Assembly (NCBI RefSeq): GCF_003261175.1
Contig: NZ_QLNP01000098.1
Location: 62,001 to 126,000 of the forward strand
Origin: Arthrobacter globiformis
Lineage (GTDB): Bacteria; Actinomycetota; Actinomycetes; Actinomycetales; Micrococcaceae
Direction of reading: 5' to 3'
DNA: 64,000 bases
How positions within the stretch are numbered: position 1 is the stretch's first letter; each line of letters starts with the position of its first letter. The notes below the pieces were generated by a model. That model was not told the origin of the DNA, did not search any database, and saw nothing but the letters and a program-made list of their open reading frames with translations. This document shows positions 52,746 through 58,571 of this stretch, one piece after another. Made by a program: the position numbers and the translations under genes.

Positions 52746-53456
52746 TTAAGGGGTTTGAACCGGACCGCCATGCCCGTTCGTTCCATCAACGCCAAGGCAC
52801 ACCAGACGGTAGCCCACGCCCCGGACGGTTTGGATGCGGTCCGCGCCCAGCTTGTGCCGCAGGTACCGTACGTAGACGTCCACCACGTTGGACGACCCCT
52901 CGAAGTGGTAACCCCACACCCGGCTCAGAAGCTGCTCGCGGCTGAGCACCTTGCCGGCGTTCTCCATGAATGTCCGTGCCATGACGAACTCCCTCGCGGA
53001 CAGGTCGATCACGCGGCCGCGGATCTCTGCCGTGCGGAGGTTCACGTCGAGGGACAGGTCGCCGCAGACGAATGTCGGGGCGGAAGCGACCACCTGCGCG
53101 CCGCGGAGCCGGAGCTTGATGCGGGAGAGCAGTTCTTCGAACCGGAAGGGCTTGGTCATGTGGTCATCCGCACCGCCGTCGAGCGCCGCCACAGTGCTCT
53201 CAAGGCTGTCTGCCGCCGTCAGCACGATCACCGGAATCGTTGAGCGCATGTTCCGGAGGTTCTTGAGGACGGTAAGACCGTCCATCCTCGGCATGGTGAT
53301 GTCCAGGATGAGGAGGTCGAACTCCCCGGACGTGGCGTAATCCAGCGCCTTCACCCCGTCGAAGACCTGGGTGGTGGTGTAGCCGGCCGCTGTGAGGCCT
53401 TTGGCGAGGAAGGCGGCAATGCGGGGCTCGTCGTCGGCGATCAGGATCCGCGTCAA
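52746..53456 (-). CDS. Two-component response regulator, OmpR family
   Basis: The 236-residue protein has a receiver domain (ILIADDEPRIAAFLAKGL, phospho-acceptor Asp52 in LLILDITMPRMDGL, Lys in DHMTKPFRFEELLSRI) and an OmpR/PhoB winged-helix domain (about residues 130-225: IRGRVIDLSAREFVMARTFM, then VWGYHFEGSSNVVDVYVRYL). Its start overlaps the kinase stop by four bases, so kinase and regulator are coupled, with the kinase gene first. Downstream in the same direction lie the exported EDKGGL protein and the small PGHPEQA protein, which are candidate targets. Confidence 0.93.
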   Translation of the reverse strand: MTRILIADDEPRIAAFLAKGLTAAGYTTTQVFDGVKALDYATSGEFDLLILDITMPRMDGLTVLKNLRNMRSTIPVIVLTAADSLESTVAALDGGADDHMTKPFRFEELLSRIKLRLRGAQVVASAPTFVCGDLSLDVNLRTAEIRGRVIDLSAREFVMARTFMENAGKVLSREQLLSRVWGYHFEGSSNVVDVYVRYLRHKLGADRIQTVRGVGYRLVCLGVDGTNGHGGPVQTP

Positions 53457-55126
53457 GGCGTACCTCCAGCCCGGATGGCCAGTTCAATGCCCGACGCCGG
53501 CCCGGCCAGCTTCGGTTTGCCGCCCCGGCGCCGTTTCTTGGGCCGCGCATCACCTTGTGCGTCGAAGCCCTCGGTGTCGCCGCCGGTGTCCGCCGCGACG
53601 GAGCCATCCGTTTCATCGCTCTCATCTGTGCCGCCGGACGGTATCCGGAGCGTGAAGCGGCTGCCTTTGCCCTCCTCCGACTCCAGAAGCACAGTGCCGC
53701 CGTGCGCCTCGGCGATGGCTTTGACGATGGAAAGGCCCAGGCCCGAGCCTTCCGTGGCCGCCGAATTGCTGCCCTTGCCGAAGCGTTCGAATATGCGCTC
53801 ATGCTCGTCCGCCGGAATCCCCGTGCCGGTGTCCGAGACCCAAATTTCCAGCTCCCTGGACGCGCGGTGCCGCGCTGCCAGCTCGCGGACAACTACTGCC
53901 CGCCCGCCCTGGGGAGCGCCGCCGTCGTCCTCCACCCAGGCGCCGCCAACGGATATCTGGTCCGACTCGGACGTGTGGTTGACCGCATTGGCGGCGAGCT
54001 GTTCCAGCGCCTGGGTGAGCCGGCGGCGGTCAGCGCGGATTAGGCCGCCGGGCCTGGCCTCCAGCCGCCACTGCCGCTCGCCGAGGACCCGGACGCGGTT
54101 GAGGACATCCTCCAGGAGGTCATCCGCCTCCACCCAGGCGGGCGTCACGAAGTCGGGCCGGCCGCTGCGGGCAAGCAGCAGCAGGTCATCCACCAGCACC
54201 TGCATCCGGTCAAGTTCGTCCAGGAGCAGCTCGCGGGTCTGGTCCACGTCGTTGGGGTCCCCACTGCGGAGCAGCTCCAGGTACCCGCGGATGATCGTCA
54301 TGGGGGTGCGCAGTTCGTGGCTGGCGTCGTGGACGAAGCGGCGCTGGTTGTCCGATCCGGATTCCAGCCGTTCGAGCATTCGGTTGAAGTTCATGGCCAG
54401 CTGAGCGATGTCGTCAGTGCTGGCCGGCACTTCCACCCGCTTGCTCAGGTCCTCAAATGTCGTGGCCTCCGTGGCCTCGCGGAGCCGCCGGACGGGGCGC
54501 AGCAGCCGCCCGGTGACCAGATAACCCACCAGGCCGGTCATTGCGAGCGTGACGGCGGACGCCAGGGCAAAGGTCCACATCGAAGCGAAAACCTCCTCGC
54601 GCTGGGCTCCGATCTCGCTCGAGGTAATCAGAAGACCCTGGTCTGGGCGGCCGCCCGGCAGGGACACCGACGTAATGGCCAGGCGGACCTGCCGGCCGTC
54701 GAGGTCGATGTCCCGCATCACGGTCTGACGGGGCACACTCCAGTCCCACATGTTGTCGGTGATCGCGGCCGTTCTGAGCTTGGTCGGCTGCTCCCCGGCA
54801 GGCAGGATGACGCTGCGGCCGCGGACCACGGTCATCACCGACACGTAGCCCCCGGGAGCACCGCTGCGCAGATAGGTTGTAAAGAGGCTGTTCAGGGAGG
54901 CATAAGGTGCGCCGGAATTGGGCTGGCCGCGCTTGGCCAGCGCGTCCAGGTTCTTGCGCGGCACCTGGAGCTCGGCATTGACGCGGTCATTGAGGCTGTT
55001 CAGCTGGGCGGCATGGGTGGCGGCGCCGGCGACAAACAGGCCCACGGCCATGAAGACGAGCAGCGTGGCCAGCAGCCGGAAGCGGACGGAGTGGACTTCC
55101 GTGCGCAGCGCGCCGGCCGTGTTCAT
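53453..55126 (-). CDS. Two-component sensor histidine kinase
   Basis: The 557-residue kinase has an N-terminal membrane segment (about residues 15-38), an extracytoplasmic domain of about 150 residues, a second membrane segment (about 190-212), a HAMP domain (LLRPVRRLREATEATTFEDL), HisKA with the phospho-acceptor in RRFVHDASHELRTPMTIIRG (His270), and HATPase (LEQLAANAVNHT, SDTGTGIPADEHERIFERFG, SGLGLSIVKAIAEAHGG). A Lys/Arg-rich C-terminal tail of about 70 residues follows the catalytic domain. The start at 55126 (MNTAGALRTEVHSVRFR) is chosen for its membrane segment. Divergent from the SARP fusion gene across 486 bases. Confidence 0.92.
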   Translation of the reverse strand: MNTAGALRTEVHSVRFRLLATLLVFMAVGLFVAGAATHAAQLNSLNDRVNAELQVPRKNLDALAKRGQPNSGAPYASLNSLFTTYLRSGAPGGYVSVMTVVRGRSVILPAGEQPTKLRTAAITDNMWDWSVPRQTVMRDIDLDGRQVRLAITSVSLPGGRPDQGLLITSSEIGAQREEVFASMWTFALASAVTLAMTGLVGYLVTGRLLRPVRRLREATEATTFEDLSKRVEVPASTDDIAQLAMNFNRMLERLESGSDNQRRFVHDASHELRTPMTIIRGYLELLRSGDPNDVDQTRELLLDELDRMQVLVDDLLLLARSGRPDFVTPAWVEADDLLEDVLNRVRVLGERQWRLEARPGGLIRADRRRLTQALEQLAANAVNHTSESDQISVGGAWVEDDGGAPQGGRAVVVRELAARHRASRELEIWVSDTGTGIPADEHERIFERFGKGSNSAATEGSGLGLSIVKAIAEAHGGTVLLESEEGKGSRFTLRIPSGGTDESDETDGSVAADTGGDTEGFDAQGDARPKKRRRGGKPKLAGPASGIELAIRAGGTP

Positions 55127-55612
55127 GGGACCACCCGGGCGAATCTGACGTGTGATGCACGTAACACGTCGCGAGGCAGGGCTGGCCACGCAAAATTTTT
55201 TTGAAATCGGGGGTCGCCGGCAGAGACGCTCATCGCCGAGTACTCGGAATACTTGGTTGTACCCGGCCCGGCCATGGTCTGTCTCATTGGATCACCCATT
55301 TCACGCTGATTCGGCGGTCCTCCGGGGATGAAAACCGCAATAGCACCGCTGTTACTGCGGTAATACGAATCTAGCCCCGGGTTCTTGGGAAAAACTTGGT
55401 GTCTGCGGCGCCGCTGCATTCCCGGCAGGAGGTTCCAGGGGAGCCGTGGGCCACCCCAGCCTGGTGGTGGCCCGCTTGATGCGAAAGCAACCAAGTAGTG
55501 GCCCAGCCGAAAGTCGAGTACTCGCTACTCGTGCCCACACTTGCCCGAGTGACAAGTATGAATCCAAGCCATTCATGGGGAATGCAGTTCATGGGGATAG
55601 TAGGTGCACAAA
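55127..55612. promoter_or_regulatory. Divergent regulatory region with symmetric palindromes
   Basis: The 486 bases between the divergent kinase and SARP-fusion genes hold CCGAGTACTCGG (55236-55247) and CGAGTACTCG (55515-55524), each next to one half of a separate inverted pair, TACTTGGTTG (55250-55259) and CAACCAAGTA (55488-55497). ACTTG...CAAGT (55539-55557) adds a shorter palindrome. The order palindrome, half-site, half-site, palindrome is symmetric about 55375. A looping operator is possible; the binding protein is unknown. Confidence 0.5.
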
Positions 55613-57187
55613 ATGGTACAAACTGTTGCAGAAGATACTCGTTGGTCCCGGAGAGTTAACGACGACGAGTACCTTCCAAACTCAATGGAAGACGCTGGTG
55701 GAACAACGACGAAGTTGTCCATCAACATCCTGGGCCCGCTCCGTGTCCGCCGCGGCGGCGTGGAGATCGGATCCCACGAGCTTGGTGGGCCCAAGCCCCG
55801 CCAGGTCCTTGAAATCCTGTTGCTCAAGCTGGGGACCCCGGTCTCCAAGAACCACCTGATCGAAGTTTTGTGGAATGGCCAGCCGCCGTCCGAGGCACTG
55901 TCCACTCTGGAAAGCTACGTCAGCGTCCTGCGCCGCCACCTTCAGCCCGGGAGCGGCAAGGGCGGAGCCCTCCGCACAGTCACCGGAGGCTACATGATCG
56001 ACCGCGCCATGGTTGACTTGGACCTCGATCGGTTCGATGAGCTTCTGAAGCAGGCGGGGCACGCCTCACCAGAGGAATCCTTCCGGCTGCTCGAGAAGGC
56101 CCTCGGCATCGCCTCCGTGCCACTGCTCGGCGATGAGCTGCTGGCCGGCTGGGCAGAGGAAGAGCGTTCGCTCCACTCAGCCCGCGTCGCGAGCATCAAG
56201 GCACGGGCCGCGGAAGCAGCCGTCGCCGTCGGACACCCGGAGCGCGCAGTGGCCCTCGCCAGCGAACTGCTCGTGGACGATCCCATCAACGAGCGCGCCT
56301 GGACCGCCTTGATCCTGGGTCTGGAAGAATCCGGGCAGTACATGGAAGCATTGCGGGCCTACGGGCGCTGCCGCCGGGTCATGGACCAGGAGATCGGCTG
56401 CCTCCCCGGACGCCCGCTTCGCGAAGCGCACGCCCGGCTGCTCCAGGCAACAGCCGCCAGCGAGGATGACATGGACCTCACAGATTCAGGTGCCCAGCCC
56501 CCGGCAACTTCCCAAGTCACCCGGGAAATCAGCATCCTGACCATCGACGACCACAGCACGTTTACCGAACTGCTGACGGCAGCCCTCGACCGCGAACCGG
56601 ACCTGCGGAGCGTCGCCTCGGCTACCACCGCCAAGAGCGGCGTGGAGCAGAGCATCGCCCTCAAGCCCGACGTCGTGATCATGGACTTCCACCTGCCCGA
56701 CGGCGACGGCCTCACTGCCGCTGCCCGCATCCTGGCCGACGCCCCCGACACCCGGATCGTCATGCTCACCGGCGACCCGACGCCGGAAGCGCTGCGGACC
56801 GCCGCCTCCATGGGTATCTGCGCCTTCCTGCCGAAGGGCGGATCGCTGTCCACCCTCCTGGACACCCTCCGCTACGCGCGGGCCGGCAACATGGTGGTGC
56901 ACCCCTCGCTGGTGGCCCAGCTGGGCATGTCCACCCCCGCTCCGGCCCCCGTGGTCCGCGAAGTGGAGCCCGGCGGACCCGTCCTGACGCCCCGCGAACT
57001 GGACGTCCTTCGGCTCATGGCCGGTGGCCACGGGTCGAAGGAAGTGGCCAGCAAGCTGGACATCTCCCTCAACACCTGCCGCGGCTACGTGAAGGCAATC
57101 TTCGCGAAGCTCGGCACCCACTCGCAGCTCGAATCGGTCATGGAAGCGTCACGGCGCGGCATGCTCGAGCAGCCATCAAATGGCTAG
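55613..57187 (+). CDS. SARP-type / response-regulator fusion: Trans_reg_C + BTAD + receiver + LuxR HTH
   Basis: The 524-residue protein combines a SARP-like N-terminus (about residues 33-110 winged helix: GGPKPRQVLEILLLKLGTPV, LWNGQPPSEA; about 115-265 BTAD: ERAWTALILGLEESGQYMEA) with a receiver domain (about 305-425: Asp312/Asp313 in ISILTIDDHSTF, phospho-Asp358 in VVIMDFHLPDGDG) and a C-terminal LuxR/FixJ HTH (about 455-515: VLTPRELDVLRLMAGGHGSK, NTCRGYVKAIFAKLGTHSQL). It thus carries two DNA-binding domains. A possible alternative start is GTG 55604. The kinase gene that follows overlaps it by eight bases. The C-terminal half alone resembles a NarL-type response regulator; whether phosphorylation controls the SARP half is unknown. 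Confidence 0.88.
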   Translation: MVQTVAEDTRWSRRVNDDEYLPNSMEDAGGTTTKLSINILGPLRVRRGGVEIGSHELGGPKPRQVLEILLLKLGTPVSKNHLIEVLWNGQPPSEALSTLESYVSVLRRHLQPGSGKGGALRTVTGGYMIDRAMVDLDLDRFDELLKQAGHASPEESFRLLEKALGIASVPLLGDELLAGWAEEERSLHSARVASIKARAAEAAVAVGHPERAVALASELLVDDPINERAWTALILGLEESGQYMEALRAYGRCRRVMDQEIGCLPGRPLREAHARLLQATAASEDDMDLTDSGAQPPATSQVTREISILTIDDHSTFTELLTAALDREPDLRSVASATTAKSGVEQSIALKPDVVIMDFHLPDGDGLTAAARILADAPDTRIVMLTGDPTPEALRTAASMGICAFLPKGGSLSTLLDTLRYARAGNMVVHPSLVAQLGMSTPAPAPVVREVEPGGPVLTPRELDVLRLMAGGHGSKEVASKLDISLNTCRGYVKAIFAKLGTHSQLESVMEASRRGMLEQPSNG

Positions 57188-58571
57188 GCCATCGCTCCGC
57201 AAACCTGCTCTGTTCCGCCCGTTCGAATCGCCGGCCTATCACAATTCCGAGGTTTTCAAGGCCGTCCGGCGGTTCCTGCTGATGGGGCTGGTTGCCCTGG
57301 TGGTGGTCACCACCCCGGTGGCCTTCTGGATCTGGTCCGAGGCGGAACGCCACGCGCTGGAGAACTCCAAGGAAGCCACCGACCACCTGGCCAACAACGT
57401 GGTGGGGCCGCTGCTGGACAAGGAAGTCCTGTCCGGCGAACCCACTGCCGTTGAACGGCTCGACGAGCGCCTCCGTCCCTGGATGGGGGAGACCTCGGTG
57501 TTCGAGATCAGGCTGTGGGACAAGGACGGGCGCATTGTCTACTCTGAAGATTCGAAACTGATCGGCAAGACCTTCGACCTGCCGCACGAGGCGCAGGAAA
57601 TCCTGGACGGCGGGGACGTCCCCGCCAACCTGGAGACGCAAAAGGACGAGGTCAACACGCCCGACGTCGAAAACGGTGAGCTCGTGGAGGTCTACGTGCC
57701 CGTCGTGGCTCCCGACGGGCAGAAACTTGTCTTTGAGTGCTATTACGACGACGACGGTGTCCGCCAGGAGCAGGCTGCCGTTCTGTTCGGCATGGCCCCG
57801 CCGTTCCTGCTGTCACTTGCTGTCCTGCAGCTGGCACAGCTGTTCCCGGCAGTCCAGCTCGCCCGCAGGATCCAGGCCTATGAAGCCGGCCGGAGCCGCC
57901 TGCTGCGCCGGGCCATCGAAGCCTCCGAGCTGGAGCGCCAGCGCATTGCCCGGGACCTGCACGACGAAGTGATCCAGGAGCTCTCGGGCCTGTCCTACGT
58001 GATGGAGTCCGAGGAACTGCACAGCCCGGTGGGCCAGCGTGCGCTGTTCTCCGACGCCCGCCGGATCCTGCAGGACAACGTCCGCAGCCTGCGCGCCATG
58101 ACCAGCGAGCTGTACCCGCCGGACCTGAACCGCCTCGGCCTCTCCGGGGCGCTCGCCCGGCTCGGCGATCCGCTCGAGGAACGCGGGATCAGCCTCGAGC
58201 TCGACCTGCCGGAGCAGTGTGAGCTGGACCGGGACCGGGCGGCGCTGTTCTACCGGGTGGCCCGTGAGGCCCTGGCCAACACCGCCAAGCATTCCAGGGC
58301 GACCAAGGCTGAGCTCCACCTCCATCAGGACGGCCACCGTTCGGAGATCCGCATCCAGGACGACGGCTGCGGCTTCGACCAGAGCCAGGGGTCGCCGGAA
58401 GGACACTTCGGCCTGCGCATCATGAAGGACACCATCGGCGAGGCCGGCGGCACGCTCCAGTTGATGTCCGCTCCCGGACGGGGCACCACGGTGATCGCGC
58501 GCTTCGGAGTCGGGGGCACCAAGGTTCCGGCCGCCGTCGAGCACGAACAGGAGCCGGTCCCCTCAACATGA
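57180..58571 (+). CDS. NarL-type sensor histidine kinase (HisKA_3), partner of the SARP fusion
   Basis: The 463-residue kinase has a membrane segment at about residues 31-52, an extracytoplasmic PAS-like/Cache-type region (FEIRLWDKDGRIVYSEDSKL), a second membrane segment near 200-222, the HisKA_3 box ELERQRIARDLHDEVIQELS with phospho-acceptor His261, and HATPase (VAREALANTAKHSRATKAEL, IQDDGCGFDQ, GHFGLRIMKDTIGEAGGTLQ). It overlaps the fusion-regulator gene by eight bases, so it should phosphorylate the receiver of that protein. The signal sensed is unknown. A Pro/Glu tail closes the protein. Confidence 0.92.
   Translation: MARPSLRKPALFRPFESPAYHNSEVFKAVRRFLLMGLVALVVVTTPVAFWIWSEAERHALENSKEATDHLANNVVGPLLDKEVLSGEPTAVERLDERLRPWMGETSVFEIRLWDKDGRIVYSEDSKLIGKTFDLPHEAQEILDGGDVPANLETQKDEVNTPDVENGELVEVYVPVVAPDGQKLVFECYYDDDGVRQEQAAVLFGMAPPFLLSLAVLQLAQLFPAVQLARRIQAYEAGRSRLLRRAIEASELERQRIARDLHDEVIQELSGLSYVMESEELHSPVGQRALFSDARRILQDNVRSLRAMTSELYPPDLNRLGLSGALARLGDPLEERGISLELDLPEQCELDRDRAALFYRVAREALANTAKHSRATKAELHLHQDGHRSEIRIQDDGCGFDQSQGSPEGHFGLRIMKDTIGEAGGTLQLMSAPGRGTTVIARFGVGGTKVPAAVEHEQEPVPST

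Follow-up and report, generated by a model that had tools for sequence, protein, structure and literature searches.

A SARP–receiver–GerE fusion regulator of Arthrobacter, probably driven by its adjoining histidine kinase, and its split, shortened and decayed relatives

The window analysed here is a stretch of 64,000 nucleotides from Arthrobacter globiformis (NZ_QLNP01000098.1, positions 62,001 to 126,000; contig C67 of an assembly of 4.88 Mb in 88 contigs), and it encodes a single protein chain that joins a SARP-type activator to a receiver and a GerE domain. Taken as a whole, this fusion is best explained, with a probability of about two in three, as a response regulator that has the SARP activator as its main output, is driven by a HisKA_3 histidine kinase encoded next to it and uses GerE as a second DNA reader.

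The first-pass annotation of this DNA had proposed that a SARP, a receiver and a LuxR-type domain share one chain of 524 residues, and a Pfam domain search bears this out: all four domains score above the gathering scores, which we used as cut-offs (Table 1; residues are numbered on the 527-residue frame). The frame was confirmed, and the ATG codon that gives 524 residues is also where the frame starts in the aligned relatives L056 and L058. As the receiver is preceded by about 290 residues of SARP module, the chain is more than a receiver with a GerE domain. The five key receiver residues (D315, D316, D361, T389 and K411) are all present. The regulator and kinase genes have eight bases in common (57180-57187), as had been reported, and the kinase protein has two hydrophobic stretches, judged by eye.

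A kinase match is found 3' of the fusion in all 28 four-domain rows of the alignment (near-copies included), and the five receiver residues are intact in 28 out of 28, including the phospho-acceptor that the same annotation had placed between the two DNA-binding ends. They are also intact in nine of ten split rows, in which SARP and response regulator are separate genes (the tenth is trimmed ahead of the first two residues), and in 20 of the 21 rows of a GerE-less form that have a downstream kinase. There are 15 GerE-less rows with no kinase match within 3.5 kb, and the receiver is damaged in 11 of these: D315 and D316 are lost in every one and D361 in six as well. The damaged loci (L041, L042, L102-L107 and L118-L120) fall on two separate branches and have no kinase match at the locus; by their sequences, these proteins are natural pseudo-receivers fused to an activator. 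The intact kinase-less rows (L048, L101, L111 and L112) come from genomes G116, G315, G346 and G398, each with a second, kinase-linked copy (L047, L100, L110 and L117). The proposal that a two-component signal could act on a SARP activator is thus favoured by a co-inherited kinase and by receiver decay that, L090 apart, goes with a missing kinase.

The near-full-length fusion (77-100% identity) was found in 16 of 199 genomes of the genus, the window's own included, and a diverged four-domain form (58-62% identity) in four more. The intact fusion is therefore present in 20 of the 199, and also in nine named Arthrobacter records, which rules out an assembly error as its source. The locus is found in A. 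globiformis NBRC 12137 as well. One genome of the window's clade has a frameshifted copy (L122, G429:C1:4317000-4328000). The SARP-receiver form without GerE is the sole form in 26 of the 199 genomes (34 loci, all read). In the family sample 42 of 295 genomes gave a match. Thirty of these lie outside the genus: 24 with split genes, three with a solo SARP, two with a SARP-receiver fusion (G203 and G116) and one with fragments only (G264, locus left unread). The 24 split genomes have separate SARP and receiver-GerE matches on the same strand within about 0.7 kb, and the split loci that we read (eight of these 24, and two from another family of the order) have the order SARP, response regulator, histidine kinase on one strand in ten out of ten cases. 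No single match across SARP and receiver was found outside the genus in the order sample (396 genomes), and the phylum sample (396 genomes) yielded two distant SARP-receiver loci without GerE (G1190 and G1164, the latter cut by a contig end). The family, order, class and phylum searches score few candidates per genome, so some matches may be missed. The expected occurrence of the same fusion in many genomes, with the kinase next door, does not extend across the phylum in the samples of 295 family, 396 order, 296 class and 396 phylum genomes. The fusion is lineage-specific yet common to many species.

Split orthologues had been named in advance as a sign of an assembly error or a recent fusion. 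They do occur in other genera; they do not mean an assembly error, because a concatenated tree has one fusion event for all fused rows, and they are ancestry rather than a mistake in the window genome. This maximum-likelihood tree was built from the SARP and receiver columns of 47 of the 77 available rows (many near-copies were left out). The 37 fused rows form one clade (support 100/99), and L038 and L047, both from a different genus of the family, are among them. The four-domain rows divide between the window's clade (100/100) and a group of four diverged rows (100/99), and the GerE-less rows are found in two places, one with the diverged four-domain rows (97/86) and one holding the remainder (98/92). 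On this best tree there is a single fusion event, after which GerE was lost twice; given that GerE is present in the split outgroup, we take the two changes to be losses. Decay of the receiver also needs two changes on this tree. FastTree gave the same arrangement from the concatenated columns at lower support, 0.69 for the clade of GerE-less and diverged rows. In some GerE-less copies, tblastn matches that run past the stop suggest residual GerE after it.

Locus L050 has, on one strand, the order c10 (an unknown family; the copy in L043 has no Pfam or NCBIfam match), SARP, response regulator, histidine kinase, multicopper oxidase and signal peptidase I. The same order recurs with a fused regulator in L092-L094, and therefore the fusion probably arose in place, within an ancestral operon. 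Split SARPs carry a C-terminal tail of about 50 residues, which the fused proteins do not have. In an ancestral operon of the L050 order, loss of the SARP tail and of a short intergenic stretch would have put SARP and response regulator into one frame; the order and sequence of this operon are read directly, and the fusion event as such we infer.

A similar design is found much farther away. In the class sample (296 genomes), nine genomes of a single family (f105) have matches running from residues 34-43 to residues 520-524 at 30-32% identity. The f105 proteins (479-532 residues, in genomes of 7.4-9.2 Mb) align over the SARP, the receiver and the C-terminus. A Pfam scan of four of these nine proteins puts Trans_reg_C, BTAD and the receiver above the cut-offs in all four, and GerE above its cut-off in L155 and L157 and below it in L159 and L161. 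Our own model finds kinase frames in the fetched stretch at eight of the nine loci, one of them confirmed as HisKA_3 by Pfam. With four of the nine f105 rows included, a single fusion clade is rejected by the receiver tree (approximately unbiased test, p = 0.0007) and is not rejected by the SARP tree (p = 0.77); going by these trees, it is likely that the f105 fusion is independent of the Arthrobacter fusion. Another match of the class sample (G1272, residues 35-428) lies in a frame that gives only the SARP part by our own models.

The GerE domain is under strong constraint, most so in the window's clade. We compared nonsynonymous (dN) and synonymous (dS) codon changes in nine pairs: five within the window's clade (without G164), one against G164 and three diverged four-domain pairs. 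In the five window-clade pairs dN is lowest for GerE among the domains, at 0.000-0.008 (dS 0.55-1.00); it is 0.012-0.019 for the receiver, 0.017-0.071 for the winged helix, 0.033-0.073 for BTAD and 0.29-0.65 for the first linker. Against G164, GerE is again the lowest (0.046). The GerE dN of the three diverged pairs is 0.069-0.127. In one of these pairs it is the lowest value, in one it equals that of the winged helix and in one it exceeds that of the receiver.

Candidate DNA sites of two kinds were found upstream of these genes. Of 66 upstream regions, 52 were used to count the core C[AG]AGTA[GC] (the 14 omitted are near-copies, second copies or unplaced). In the window's clade it occurs 31 times in seven regions, against 0.7 expected from Markov shuffles, and it is present in all four diverged four-domain regions, in 13 of the 17 regions of GerE-less genes with a kinase, in all 11 pseudo-receiver regions and in all three solo SARP regions. 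It is found in none of the ten split-operon upstream regions, and the reversed core, used as a control, gives six sites over all 52 regions. In the window, the start-to-start distance from CAAGTAG to CGAGTAC is 23. The cores are best read as candidate SARP boxes, because DNA binding by the solo and GerE-less proteins can come only from the SARP module. Box-pair loci were also inspected as genome-wide targets and were left unused, as hits did not exceed the reversed control. The other kind of site is a palindrome, CCCCC-AAATTT-GGGGG, found at nine of the ten split operons (leave-one-out scores 13-21 bits; the tenth, L049, has 2.4). The nine promoters lie upstream of SARP in several genera (L046, L050-L053, L108, L109, L123 and L124). 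The palindrome model was seeded by eye, and its background points are 10.5 (99%) and 19.3 (99.9%) in a background that includes the split loci; the top score among fused promoters is 11.4 (L035). As a candidate operator, the palindrome suits a NarL-type dimer. The promoter of the window genome's oxidase looked alike by eye and was rejected as a palindrome target, since it scores 5.4 bits, below the 99% point.

Genes found near relatives of the regulator encode a multicopper oxidase (some with S-layer domains), signal peptidase I, c10 and a haem peroxidase that is about 1,800-1,900 residues long and contains RTX and fn3 repeats. The animal-type haem peroxidase gene at L041 (2200-7698, minus strand), like its relatives, adjoins SARP-receiver genes and is divergent from them. 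The multicopper oxidase-signal peptidase I pair is seen in L050, L092-L094 and L139; the SARP two-component genes precede it in L050 and L092-L094, where c10 lies upstream. An oxidase lies within 15 kb of all four diverged four-domain loci and of 22 out of 34 GerE-less loci. Across genomes, an oxidase match (E up to 1e-60) is present in 42 of 47 genomes with the regulator and in 13 of 152 without it (Fisher p = 6e-26, uncorrected for kinship), and the regulator-bearing genomes without an oxidase (G123, G395, G397, G405 and G452) have decayed receivers. The linkage suggests that the multicopper oxidase and the signal peptidase were probably the ancestral target, with the large haem peroxidase a likely further one in many relatives; that the linked oxidases act on manganese is a guess. 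The window genome has the oxidase-signal peptidase pair on contig C32 and two more oxidase matches elsewhere, and these targets, if still controlled, would be reached in trans. At L165, in a class-level relative (G1383), receiver-GerE regulators flank an oxidase-signal peptidase pair on both sides, and the 16-kb stretch has no SARP match.

The genes 3' of the kinase gene in the window are menC, a PhoX-type phosphatase gene and menD. Upstream of the fusion there is a divergent OmpR-type kinase and response regulator pair (Table 1), which adjoins the fusion in the window-clade loci that were read with flanks (L034-L036 and L054-L062) and is also found beside two GerE-less relatives (L037 and L039).

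Table 1. Features of the fusion gene, its promoter and its neighbours (positions in the window)
Feature	Position	Strand	Remark
SARP-receiver-GerE fusion regulator	55604..57187	+	open frame; 527 aa from GTG 55604, 524 aa from ATG 55613
Winged helix (Trans_reg_C), residues 63-130	55790..55993	+	Pfam 34.5 bits, cut-off 26.2
Bacterial transcriptional activation domain (BTAD), residues 139-280	56018..56443	+	Pfam 71.3 bits, cut-off 22.1
Receiver (Response_reg), residues 311-422	56534..56869	+	Pfam 65.3 bits, cut-off 30.2
Phospho-acceptor Asp361 of receiver	56684-56686	+	intact in 28 of 28 four-domain rows
GerE/LuxR-type helix-turn-helix, residues 460-514	56981..57145	+	Pfam 51.0 bits, cut-off 23.5
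Sensor histidine kinase (HisKA_3 + HATPase_c), 463 aa	57180..58571	+	Pfam
Candidate SARP-box cluster in fusion promoter	55492..55531	.	putative; pattern picked after viewing sequences
CAAGTAG in candidate cluster	55492-55498
CGAGTACTCG in candidate cluster	55515-55524
CTACTCG in candidate cluster	55525-55531
Second CGAGTACTCG palindrome	55237..55246	.	48 bases before listed start (55189) of divergent OmpR-type kinase gene
OmpR-type kinase, divergent, upstream of fusion	53453-55189	-	Pfam
OmpR-type response regulator, beside divergent OmpR-type kinase	52746-53456	-	Pfam

In the mechanism that we favour, the adjoining HisKA_3 kinase would phosphorylate Asp361. The phosphorylated receiver would then dimerise and place two SARP halves side by side on the repeated boxes, and BTAD would recruit RNA polymerase as in AfsR, as fold and conserved residues suggest. 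The C-terminal GerE module, apparently inherited from a separate NarL-type regulator, may have been kept in the window's clade as a second, phosphorylation-controlled DNA reader, to judge from its constraint. Another reading takes the SARP half as the sole working output and GerE as a passenger from the old response regulator that serves, at most, in dimerisation or as an inhibitory lid. Its attraction is that sister lineages have dropped GerE on two occasions, in one case with the receiver still intact, and that box-type sites also stand before GerE-less proteins (13/17 kinase-linked, 11/11 pseudo-receiver and 3/3 solo SARP); the dN of GerE, lowest among the domains in the five window-clade pairs, argues the other way, and we consider this reading unlikely. 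The model of the first-pass annotation, in which both DNA-binding ends sit simultaneously on two distant sites and bridge them, is more doubtful still. The two DNA-binding domains are linked by stretches of low model confidence, which would suit it, as would two kinds of candidate sites (boxes at fused and solo SARP genes, the palindrome at split operons), but these site types stand before different genes: the box core is in no scored split promoter, no scored fused promoter reaches the nine palindrome scores, and the palindrome model is weak at the oxidase promoter of the window genome. Least probable of all is that the fusion controls transcription with a phosphodonor other than the adjoining kinase; the decayed receiver of L090, next to a retained kinase, speaks for it, and against it stand the overlap of the two genes, the kinase that follows in every four-domain row and the two receiver decays in lineages mostly without a kinase.

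Several results weigh against the favoured reading of a kinase-driven SARP activator with GerE as second reader. At L090 a kinase frame adjoins a receiver in which D315, D316 and T389 are gone, and three of the 11 damaged kinase-less copies share a genome (G304, G346 and G430) with a kinase-linked copy; we regard the evolutionary evidence for coupling as good but not overwhelming, because it comes from few evolutionary events (two decays only). Related fusions manage without GerE, having lost it twice, and the diverged four-domain rows include pairs in which another domain is under equal or stronger constraint. The receiver-only FastTree is less clear, with split rows inside the fused group, and the fused-row clade has a support of only 0.51 in the kinase FastTree. 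The core pattern was chosen after viewing the sequences, in related regions that are not independent, and a genome-wide search for box pairs did no better than its reversed control (4 vs 6 in G000, 4 vs 5 in G009 and 1 vs 8 in G164). No oxidase was found within 15 kb of any of the 17 window-type loci, and the co-occurrence figure for the oxidase ignores kinship.

A broader synthesis is conceivable and, as one whole, rather doubtful. A single chain would carry two unlike DNA readers under one phosphorylation event: repeated boxes, at the regulator's own promoter and elsewhere, would be read by the SARP end, and palindromic operators by the GerE end. Two once-separate regulons would have merged under one kinase, and two promoters could be linked. 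Sister lineages would have shed GerE, the kinase and finally phosphorylation to become plain SARPs, and the four-domain design would have been invented independently in another actinobacterial family.

SARPs are presented in a review mainly as activators of antibiotic clusters (PMC10972967). In the fusion family a SARP is joined straight to a two-component receiver, and the relatives show many stages: separate genes, fusion in place, loss of GerE, a missing kinase and a decayed receiver. As a natural series, they can be used to ask how a phosphorylation switch gains a new output domain and whether a two-ended regulator uses both ends, and they give a starting point for studying how multicopper oxidases and haem peroxidases are regulated in soil actinobacteria.

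In the open-access library searched, the architecture winged helix-BTAD-receiver-GerE is described in none of the titles and abstract openings among the matches listed. The statement that SARPs and response regulators normally exist apart has to be qualified: GSU1771 of Geobacter sulfurreducens is reported to combine a receiver with an activator domain and a winged helix (PMC10599522), and thus has SARP-type regions and a receiver in one chain, as the fusion has. Its receiver is N-terminal, however, whereas the fusion has the order winged helix-BTAD-receiver-GerE; the available account of GSU1771, which is from another bacterial group, describes no GerE. SARP-LAL regulators (PimR, SanG and PolR) have an N-terminal SARP and a part akin to LuxR-family LAL regulators (PMC10972967); unlike the fusion, they carry an ATP/GTP-binding part, and the review's account of them does not speak of a receiver. 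The term aspartate-less receiver, in the usage of PMC4395418, fits six of the 11 damaged receivers of the relatives (those without D361), whereas the window receiver is intact.

The winged helix and BTAD of the fusion have the order and fold of the AfsR/SARP family (AfsR, EmbR, DnrI and ActII-ORF4), which is defined by an N-terminal OmpR-type winged helix followed by BTAD, and they match the AfsR and EmbR structures. Large SARPs are described as bearing additional C-terminal control domains as well (PMC10972967, PMC10936776), and the review groups SARPs by their NB-ARC, TPR, ATPase or LAL parts (PMC10972967); the control module of the fusion is a receiver with GerE instead of an NB-ARC/TPR or ATPase part, and its input would come from a histidine kinase. 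According to the cryo-electron microscopy report on AfsR, a side-by-side dimer on direct repeats contacts sigma region 4, the beta flap and the C-terminal domain of the alpha subunit (alphaCTD) (PMC10936776); three of the four named alphaCTD-contact residues are kept in the fusion, for which contact with RNA polymerase is predicted. Sites of this family are direct repeats about one or two helical turns apart, and the fusion promoter has candidate cores with a start distance of 23. The likeness to NarL/FixJ regulators (NarL, VraR, LiaR and DesR) lies in the other half of the chain: by sequence, residues 309-521 match VraR and residues 309-513 match NarL, the phosphorylation residues are intact, GerE is C-terminal and a HisKA_3 kinase gene adjoins. 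With an entire SARP activator added at its N-terminus, the fusion is not a plain member of the NarL/FixJ group and may nevertheless work like one.

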